In this document: positions 1,523 to 5,487 of the stretch, piece after piece
How positions within the stretch are numbered: position 1 is the stretch's first letter
How the letters are laid out: every line of letters begins with the position of its first letter
Source of the DNA: Nitrososphaerota archaeon
GTDB taxonomy: Archaea; Thermoproteota; Nitrososphaeria; Nitrososphaerales; UBA183
Length of the DNA stretch: 9,286 nucleotides
Assembly: GCA_029784825.1 (NCBI GenBank)
Contig: JAFMAU010000069.1
Coordinates: 1-9,286, forward strand
Direction of reading: 5' to 3'
Made by a program: the position numbers and the translations under genes
The notes under the pieces: model-generated
Databases searched by the model: none
What the model was told of the DNA's origin: nothing
The model's input: only the letters and a program-made list of their open reading frames with translations

Positions 1523-1530
1523 CGCTTAAA
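1523..1530 (-). promoter_or_regulatory. TATA element of the RHH-sat-phosphodiesterase operon
   Basis: On the minus strand the sequence reads CGATTTAAGCG, an archaeal TATA element in GC-rich surroundings. A start about 26 bases downstream falls near 1500 and gives a leader of about 25 bases that includes the AGGGGGT site in front of the RHH gene. An alternative TATA, ATATAT within the palindrome at 1497-1512, would place the start too close to the TTG to include that ribosome-binding site. Confidence 0.45.
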
Positions 1531-1531
1531 T
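1524..1531 (+). promoter_or_regulatory. TATA element of the 1557 membrane-protein gene, shared with the divergent promoter
   Basis: The same AT island reads GCTTAAATC on the plus strand. Its centre is about 28 bases before the TTG start at 1557, the spacing expected for a leaderless archaeal transcript. No ribosome-binding site precedes that start. The two opposing genes may therefore use one AT element in opposite orientations. Confidence 0.4.
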
Positions 1532-1556: not shown

Positions 1557-2042
1557 TTGGACTTCCGCCTTCCGTTCGCCGTGGGGATGGTGATTACACT
1601 GGCCGGGGCCTTCTGGGACGCTTGGCGGCACCTGAACGGGCTCGCAACCAGCGAAAGCCTCCTGAACCCGTTCCTGAACCCGGCCCACGGGACCATCTAT
1701 GCGGGGGCCGCGGTGATGGCAGCGAGCCTGGTTCTCTACAAGACCGGGAGACTGAGCCTCCCGATAACCATCGGCCGGAGGACCTACCTCGCGATGCTGG
1801 CCGGAATCGCCCTGCTGCTCGGGGGCGGTCTCTATGACTTCTGGTGGCACAACGCCTACGGGTTCGCGGACACCACCCCATGGACCCCGTCGCACATGAC
1901 GGCGACGGCCGGCTTCACGATCCTGCTCGTCACCGGGGTCCTTGGCCTGAGCAGGAAGAGCAGCGTGGCAGTCAAGGCCGGGCTCGCGCTCTCGGTCGCC
2001 CTCTTCGTCGCGCTGTGGTCGGCGGTCCTCCTGATGGCGTAG
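1557..2042 (+). CDS. Small five-helix membrane protein with two Asp-x3-His...His motifs (PmoC/AmoC-like metal-site pattern)
   Basis: I do not recognise a named family. The 161-residue protein has about five membrane segments (near residues 5-23, 43-61, 76-96, 113-132, 138-161). Two similar motifs are visible: D21-x3-H25 at the end of helix 1, with NPAH44G opening helix 2; and D94-x3-H98 at the end of helix 3, with DTTPWTPSH113 opening helix 4. All six Asp/His residues would lie on the same face of the membrane, which suggests an internal duplication and one or two metal sites. The pattern recalls the Asp-x3-His-x12-His copper site of PmoC/AmoC, whose motif also contains a DT...TPSH stretch. 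The protein is shorter than usual PmoC and no pmoA/pmoB is present, so enzymatic activity is not claimed. The TTG start at 1557 is preferred because an in-frame stop lies upstream and the TATA spacing fits a leaderless mRNA; GTG 1581 or ATG 1587 would cut into helix 1. Confidence 0.75.
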   Translation: MDFRLPFAVGMVITLAGAFWDAWRHLNGLATSESLLNPFLNPAHGTIYAGAAVMAASLVLYKTGRLSLPITIGRRTYLAMLAGIALLLGGGLYDFWWHNAYGFADTTPWTPSHMTATAGFTILLVTGVLGLSRKSSVAVKAGLALSVALFVALWSAVLLMA

Positions 2043-4671: not shown

Positions 4672-5487
4672 CTAAGGCCCGCTGCTGATCCACTGTATGG
4701 TGAAGCTCTGCCCGTCGGTGGCGAGAGCCGATGGCTGTGCCTTCACCTGGCTCGGGTTCGTCTGGCTCACCATGGTTATCTCCTGCACGTTCGACCCGAA
4801 GGACCCTATCGACCCGGTCGCCCCGTTCATTATGAGCTCGCAGGTCATCGAGATACCTGTGTTGTCCAACCCGAACTTGGCTGTACCAAAGTCCGCCAGG
4901 GAGGTCAGGTGGCACTTCAGCAGGCAGGTCGACGGCGCTTCGACTATCCACTCCGCTGAGCTCCTGGCTGCGCCTGAGACCGTGGCCGAAGCCCCGAACT
5001 GCGCGCCGGTCGTCTCGTCCTTGATCTGCGCCTTGAAGGTCCCGGCCGAATAGAACACCACTGCAGCCATGACGTCGCCTGGGTGGACCGTTATCGCGCT
5101 TATCGTATGGGACGGGCTGGGGAAGAATTCGTACCAGGCGTAGTATGACGCCACCCCGTTGTGGCAGTCAGAGTCGGTCCCGGTCTGCTCCACCGTGCTC
5201 GAGGTGTACCCGTCGATCCCCACCCAGAACGAAGAGTAGTACGTCCCCGACGACGGGCAGGTCACCGAAGGGACGACCCAGGAGTCGGATGCAGCGGAAA
5301 CGGAGCCCGAGGTCCCTGTGACCGCGTACCCGCTCCAGTTGGTGCTCTGGGCGCTCCCGTGGTCGGCCGAGACTATGGTCGCCGGTGAAGACAGCGCCAC
5401 CGCAGGGATAGAAGCGGCTGGAAACGCGAGGATCGGGATCAGGGCGATGGAAACCAGGAGGACCAGCCTAGGTTCGCTGATCTTCAC
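4672..5487 (-). CDS. Secreted G1-family (eqolisin) glutamic peptidase
   Basis: An exported endopeptidase of the eqolisin family (Pfam Peptidase_G1), a beta-sandwich enzyme that uses a Gln/Glu dyad and works at acid pH in characterised fungal members. The 271-residue precursor has a signal peptide (hydrophobic residues 7-32, cleavage probably after an Ala near 31-36) and a domain from NWSGYAV (50-56) onward. The catalytic Gln is very likely Q101 in GIDGYTSSTVEQTG, and the catalytic Glu E183 in AEWIVEAP (E179 is the other choice); their spacing of 82 is close to the 83 in scytalidoglutamic peptidase. Length fits the mature family with almost no propeptide. The GTG start at 5487 has GGGAGG seven bases upstream. 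It follows the secreted-protein gene by 12 bases, so the two are cotranscribed. It suggests life in, or use of, an acidic extracellular setting. Confidence 0.9.
   Translation of the reverse strand: MKISEPRLVLLVSIALIPILAFPAASIPAVALSSPATIVSADHGSAQSTNWSGYAVTGTSGSVSAASDSWVVPSVTCPSSGTYYSSFWVGIDGYTSSTVEQTGTDSDCHNGVASYYAWYEFFPSPSHTISAITVHPGDVMAAVVFYSAGTFKAQIKDETTGAQFGASATVSGAARSSAEWIVEAPSTCLLKCHLTSLADFGTAKFGLDNTGISMTCELIMNGATGSIGSFGSNVQEITMVSQTNPSQVKAQPSALATDGQSFTIQWISSGP

Follow-up and report, generated by a model that had tools for sequence, protein, structure and literature searches.

Where the copper membrane monooxygenases came from, and what the CuC and CuD sites of their subunit C do, are questions on which an unannotated family of archaeal and bacterial proteins bears. 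We met this family in contig JAFMAU010000069.1 of a Nitrososphaerota archaeon (assembly GCA_029784825.1), whose 9,286 nucleotides are called the window below. One gene in the window encodes a small membrane protein with a duplicated Asp-x3-His...His motif, and a sequence-only reading had proposed that it is a pared-down relative or analogue of the PmoC metal-binding core with an internal duplication, possibly a stand-alone membrane protein that handles copper or has a redox role. Is it such a relative, and what could it do? Our comparisons support shared ancestry of this open reading frame (ORF) with the PmoC/AmoC core, yet not its placement as a subunit C proper.

Two Asp/His triads predicted on one membrane face

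Translation of positions 1557-2042 gives DAWRH (residues 21-25) and H44 in copy 1 (D21-x3-H25-x18-H44), and DFWWH (94-98) and DTTPWTPSH (105-113) in copy 2 (D94-x3-H98-x14-H113), exactly where they had been read. A search of 5.8 billion proteins returned 58 at an E-value (E) <= 0.01, including the window protein's own copy (P0002). After leaving out that copy and four fragments, we aligned the window protein with 53 homologues. The six residues D21, H25, H44, D94, H98 and H113, for which a survey of homologues had been proposed, are identical in all 54 sequences, and the other invariant positions include E33, W97, D105, W109, T110 and S112. Because all six are invariant, we do not regard the motif as a product of chance. 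The alignment also shows a methionine in homologue P0004 at the place of the TTG start used in the window. No Pfam or NCBIfam family was assigned to the window protein; the 54 sequences gave weak, scattered matches only, the best being Cation_ATPase_C (E 9e-4, in two of the 54), and a PDB sequence search returned no match at E <= 10.

The AlphaFold2 (AF2) model of the window protein (mean predicted local distance difference test score 92.9, predicted template modelling score 0.89) has helices at residues 4-26, 42-62, 74-101, 111-131 and 137-160. D21 and H25 end helix 1 and H44 begins helix 2, just as D94 and H98 end helix 3 and H113 begins helix 4. Since each triad spans the end of one helix and the start of the next, all six residues are predicted to lie on one side of the membrane, and the model and the loop charges agree here with the sequence-only reading. 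Lysine and arginine are almost confined to the two loops of the opposite side (means of 3.2 and 2.6 over the 54 sequences, vs 0.04 and 0 in the two motif-side stretches), so the positive-inside rule most likely places the triads on the extracytoplasmic face.

Probable kinship with the PmoC/AmoC core

We compared a PmoC/AmoC profile (A6; nine sequences of subunit C, taken from genomes of archaea and plasmids of bacteria) with a bridging family (A9; 44 rows, holding neither PmoC nor the window family). With hhalign, the bridging family matched PmoC/AmoC (95.8%, P 8.3e-9), archaeal AmoC alone (87%, P 4e-6) and the window family (98.1%, P 8.2e-14). Controls with shuffled columns stayed at or below 0.5% and 7.5% (60 shuffles each), and a reversed profile gave 0.1%. 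A search with 13 relatives yielded 72 proteins, 37 of which were matched by the PmoC/AmoC profile at E < 0.01 (10,000-sequence scale; best 1.3e-9), as were none of 3672 shuffled or reversed decoys. In an earlier set the same profile scored 8 of 71 (best 4.2e-9; best decoy 7.9 bits). In the alignments of the best hits, both triads align to CuC and CuD. A family profile built without PmoC recovered at least 31 AmoC gene rows (E 2.4e-10 to 2.1e-9) in 120 genomes of the class of genome G002, at places also found by the Pfam AmoC model. This profile matched 83 of the 120 genomes at E <= 1e-5; for 12 of these the best E was only 1e-9 to 4e-8, and AmoC by itself may account for their match. The family is also matched in some genomes where the Pfam AmoC model gave no hit (G002 and G044, with G118 and G138 added by elimination), the assemblies of which may be incomplete. 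The proposal of a minimal PmoC-core relative with an internal duplication is thus supported by profile-profile comparison, genome-wide search, the half-specific matching described below and the shuffled controls.

A number of results weigh against this kinship or limit its reach. Compared directly, the window family does not match PmoC significantly (hhalign, 3.9%, P 0.011), and further direct comparisons gave 5.5% with PmoC/AmoC and 0.2% with archaeal AmoC; no window-family member was among the eight scored sequences of the earlier set, and none fell below E 0.8 with the PmoC profile. Because direct comparison failed, the link between the window family and PmoC runs only through relatives. 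Seven plasmid members scored unevenly with the PmoC profile (three below 0.001, two at 0.012 and 0.029, two at E 12 and 21), and one of them matches Acyl_transf_3 better (E 3.4e-5, below cut-off). Among the Pfam matches listed for 10 other relatives, AmoC does not appear. The CuC-type spacing in the window is x18, not the x12 found in many wider relatives. Foldseek searches, which had been suggested as a check on the likeness to PmoC, gave nothing at E <= 0.001 for either the window or the bridging model, and in VIA-align a cytochrome b561 (Z 11.8) ranks above PmoC.

The window model finds general helical bundles with Foldseek and VIA-align, and the absence of PmoC from the 50 rows listed carries no weight against the kinship; the bridging model aligns with seven PmoC/AmoC entries at Z values not above the helical-bundle background, and viral structure models gave nothing at E <= 0.001. 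Matches to AmoC appear in a few relatives only, far below the curated cut-off, and the window protein (P0001) stays outside the Pfam/NCBIfam cut-off for subunit C, with no AmoC hit at E <= 10. We therefore keep the window protein apart from subunit C proper, because the direct match is non-significant, the spacing differs and no AmoA or AmoB was found in the window. What stands of the claimed PmoC relationship is the homologous core; membership of the PmoC/AmoC subunit itself does not.

The likeness to PmoC/AmoC/HmoC (PF04896, TIGR03078/NF041641) lies in the layout. These proteins, too, have two triads of Asp (or Asn), His and His, each carried by a pair of helices and arranged in the same order and place. 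From the first residue of one triad to that of the other the distance is 71-72 residues, against 73 in the window protein, and in both a triad ends in TPxH. The window protein is smaller, has Asp in place of the CuD Asn, and has spacings of x18/x14 as against x12/x12-13. It thus departs from the CuD pattern Asn-x3-His-x12/13-His, although the bridging alignment puts its second triad at the same place, and it shares with a wider PmoC-core superfamily a homologous two-helix unit that is present twice, both copies containing Asp-x3-His...His. In a weakly supported tree (69 selected rows, 133 columns, long branches) the family forms its own clade apart from PmoC/AmoC, and this tree does not allow PmoC to be rooted relative to the family.

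The two halves of the protein correspond to the two PmoC sites. According to passages of one study, the CuC ligands of PmoC are D156, H160 and H173 and the CuD ligands N227, H231 and H245 (PMC12576850). A self-comparison of the halves had been proposed, and in the bridging family they are homologous to each other (hhalign, 96.1%, P 3.3e-9; 60 shuffles at or below 8.7%). The first half pairs with the CuC part of PmoC (95.4%) and the second with its CuD part (74%), whereas the crossed comparisons gave 0.2% and 9.5%. Because the bridging halves are homologous and each matches its own PmoC half, CuC and CuD would derive from a single duplication; within PmoC itself the internal repeat is not detectable (0.6%). 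The repeats are assigned to the window ORF because the bridging family matches the window family. The sequence-only reading had set copy 2 beside the Asp-x3-His-x12-His site of PmoC. One direct comparison favoured that pairing of copy 2 with CuC, but wider profiles reversed it, and copy 1 corresponds to CuC and copy 2 to CuD. D-sites are said, in the part of PMC9038741 cited here, to be conserved only in bacterial lineages. Unlike that statement, the CuD Asn and two His are invariant in nine of nine rows of A6, two of them archaeal; the D-site as defined there may differ from CuD as used here.

The wider family has the same duplicated core as the window ORF, with all six residues, and is its direct wider family; most members have additional C-terminal helices, and some also a C-terminal segment. 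Relatives are mostly 200-615 residues long and come from Nitrososphaeria, Thermoplasmata, Actinomycetota and other bacteria. The window-family profile found them in 161 of 400 genomes of G002's class at E <= 0.01; in the phylum to which one Thermoplasmata metagenome-assembled genome (MAG) belongs, 13 of 145 genomes were matched by a wider profile. The relatives from these genome searches mostly measure 200 to 550 residues. Of 176 distinct relatives (two duplicates merged, the window protein's own copy excluded), 169 show the complete double Asp/His pattern in a pattern search; the remaining seven are five short fragments, P0073 (start missing) and L134 (a 160-residue relative). In this set the triad spacing is x12/x13 in 40 relatives, as in bacterial PmoC, and x12/x12 in 28, as in the aligned archaeal AmoC. 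Since P0060 and P0061, which are close to the window family, have x14 in both copies, the x18 in the window protein is apparently due to a local insertion. The patterns used found no relatives in viral contigs or in a first scan of genome contigs. As for annotation, the organism is given for four of the 72 proteins (Acidimicrobiales, Chloroflexi, Haloechinothrix, Ornithinimicrobium), all of them labelled hypothetical; another is called a dehydrogenase, and different Pfam domains occur in three. Among the matches listed from the open-licence PubMed Central literature, no paper describes the family, or CuC and CuD as a duplication.

A probable role and its rivals

We consider it probable that the window protein is a minimal stand-alone member of this unannotated family, homologous to the copper-holding core of PmoC/AmoC, and that it handles copper at the outer face. 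Two tandem copies of a two-helix unit, each with one Asp and two His, would build a helical bundle whose six residues, in the predicted topology, face outside the cytoplasm. The triad site would bind one or two copper ions, and the protein would take up, hold or pass on copper at the membrane and would not hydroxylate a substrate. Copper handling is preferred over hydroxylation because no AmoA or AmoB was found in the window and the genes of some bacterial members are part of copper clusters; this plasmid context and the shared triads make it, in our analysis, the likeliest role. A tentative proposal, which we hold to be slightly less likely than not, is that this family also gave rise to subunit C of the methane and ammonia monooxygenases.

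The copper context comes from 12 bacterial plasmid records, all of them examined, to which three family members led as queries. Copper-named genes occur within 5 kb at five of the 12 loci, two of which are near-identical: Mycolicibacterium vanbaalenii (CopC, heme-copper oxidase subunit III), Streptomyces F2 and the near-identical FR1 (multicopper oxidase, cupredoxin), Leifsonia (copper-binding four-helix protein, heavy-metal ATPases) and Streptomyces mirabilis (cupredoxin, heavy-metal ATPase). Two other loci are only suggestive (BlaI/MecI/CopY-type regulator, TlpA/CcdA, YHS) and two carry no annotation around the gene. Because plasmids are rich in metal-resistance genes, we treat these neighbours as a lead and not as a statistic. 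Other neighbours count against copper: the M. vanbaalenii locus also holds CbtA, the relative in Deinococcus deserti lies near cobalamin genes, and three loci (Rubrobacter and two Deinococcus, the D. deserti locus among them) have no copper-named neighbour. None of the genes around the window gene was recognised as a copper gene either, and its neighbours form a locus that is conserved in relatives without the gene. The earlier suggestion of copper handling is supported only by the gene context of some bacterial relatives.

The same homology could serve another metal (zinc, iron, manganese or cobalt), or a metal sensor or assembly factor. Asp/His triads are not specific to copper, zinc occupied a PmoC site in a crystal according to part of PMC6572826, and the cobalamin genes and CbtA just mentioned would suit this explanation, which we nevertheless judge unlikely, the commonest metal-related neighbours of the plasmid relatives being copper-named genes. 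Still less likely is a stand-alone copper oxidase or monooxygenase whose duplicated site activates O2 on a small membrane-soluble substrate, as proposed for PmoC. Both PmoC triads have counterparts in the family, and the same source, as far as cited here, reports that PmoC copper tracks methane oxidation activity (PMC6572826). However, no AmoA or AmoB partner was found among the scanned window ORFs, the CuD Asn is replaced by Asp, no substrate pathway was recognised beside the gene, and some bacterial relatives sit beside copper-handling genes. The absence of pmoA/pmoB neighbours had been noted from the sequence and agrees with the scan of 10 window ORFs, which showed no AmoA, AmoB or AmoC family. 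Singleton xmoC genes are known, as mentioned in a part of PMC6215863.

It is very unlikely that the resemblance comes down to a short WH...TPxH motif that arose by convergence in membrane helices. The significant region is only about 110 columns long and the structural Z is not outstanding, but both halves match in order and specifically, the family profile recovers AmoC in whole genomes, and column shuffles, reversed profile and sequence decoys all fail. Slightly more improbable again is a membrane haem protein of the four-helix cytochrome b561/STEAP type, with the His holding haem. Proteins of this type hold haems by His pairs within the bundle, and b561-type diheme bundles are defined by conserved His pairs for two haems on both membrane halves. 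The top VIA-align rows include cytochrome b561 (Z 10.5 and 11.8), SpNOX (10.7) and STEAP2 (9.8 and 8.5), and the helix packing of cytochrome b561, STEAP and cytochrome oxidase subunit III bundles is similar to that of our models. Such Z values are commonly reached by helical bundles, however, those rows do not exceed 11% identity, and their His are placed differently. In the window protein, the four invariant His all lie at one face (AF2, loop charges), each triad with an invariant Asp, and not in pairs on both membrane halves.

Copper handling is thereby proposed as a testable function for an unannotated family present in many Nitrososphaeria genomes, including those of ammonia oxidisers. The family also provides an outgroup for PmoC/AmoC trees. 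With a protein that is small and has both triads and no known partner, the metal binding and chemistry of the site would become approachable outside the hard-to-handle trimeric enzyme.

Setting of the gene and observations on relatives

Features of the gene and its product in the window are collected in the table. The position of the TATA-box-like CTTAAAT would fit a leaderless archaeal transcript.

Table. Coordinates of the gene, its repeats and motif codons in the window
Feature	Position	Strand	Basis
Gene, 161-residue five-helix membrane protein	1557..2042	+	TTG start; translation, homologues, AF2 model
Repeat 1, helices 4-26 and 42-62, counterpart of PmoC CuC half	1566..1742	+	AF2 helices; half-specific hhalign via bridging family
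Repeat 2, helices 74-101 and 111-131, counterpart of PmoC CuD half	1776..1949	+	AF2 helices; hhalign via bridging family
Codons D21-H25 (Asp-x3-His, copy 1)	1617..1631	+	invariant, 54/54
Codon H44 (third residue, copy 1)	1686..1688	+	invariant, 54/54
Codons D94-H98 (Asp-x3-His, copy 2)	1836..1850	+	invariant, 54/54
Codon H113 (third residue, copy 2; ends DTTPWTPSH)	1893..1895	+	invariant, 54/54
Fifth helix, beyond the duplicated core	1965..2036	+	AF2 model
CTTAAAT, putative TATA-box-like element, its end 25 bases 5' of TTG	1525..1531	+	read by eye

The gene lies between sat (sulfate adenylyltransferase) with a ribbon-helix-helix (RHH) gene and a TauE-type transporter gene. The eight best matches of sat have 65-73% identity and come from MAGs with Nitrososphaerales, Thaumarchaeota or archaeon in the title. 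Across 20 related sat loci, RHH is beside sat in 17 and TauE in six, and no copy of the window gene was found; at E <= 1e-6 the window-family profile found relatives in 3 of these 20 genomes, one of which is G002. Because the sat locus is conserved without the gene, its location is uninformative on function, and a sulfur or nickel function drawn from these neighbours was rejected. A 73-residue protein at 1254-1475, RHH-like by eye, is a possible sat regulator. The window also encodes a Peptidase A4 family protein (4672-5487) and a cytochrome P450 (8171-9187).

Several relatives have additions or neighbours of their own. P0104 apparently has a beta-propeller between two helix groups (precomputed Pfam domains). 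In the plasmid relatives L158, L162, L163, L164 and L165, the segment after the helices begins AHDPGQG and, in one member, shows weak FixH/YtkA similarity; if the chain were cut at that point, its His might come to stand at the new terminus, as it does in copper His-brace domains. At 8 of 20 fetched loci, relatives of about 360 residues have a same-strand neighbour of about 191 residues (L141:7188-7763, L142-L146, L148 and L157), with an apparent single membrane anchor and a domain that holds three invariant His towards its end (PH...SH.P...DHQ.E). The one such protein scanned matched no Pfam family at E <= 0.05, and the idea that this partner gene (c1) is an AmoB relative was rejected (hhalign, 1.4%). 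A GTPase neighbour common to three loci was likewise set aside as a functional clue, being housekeeping. At L149 and L150, a subfamily of about 200 residues is found downstream of an iron-sulfur-assembly/PqqD-type protein (Pfam scan for L150 only). On the Mycolicibacterium chubuense NBB4 plasmid NC_018022.1, a monooxygenase subunit C gene (L122) and a family member (L158) occur together.
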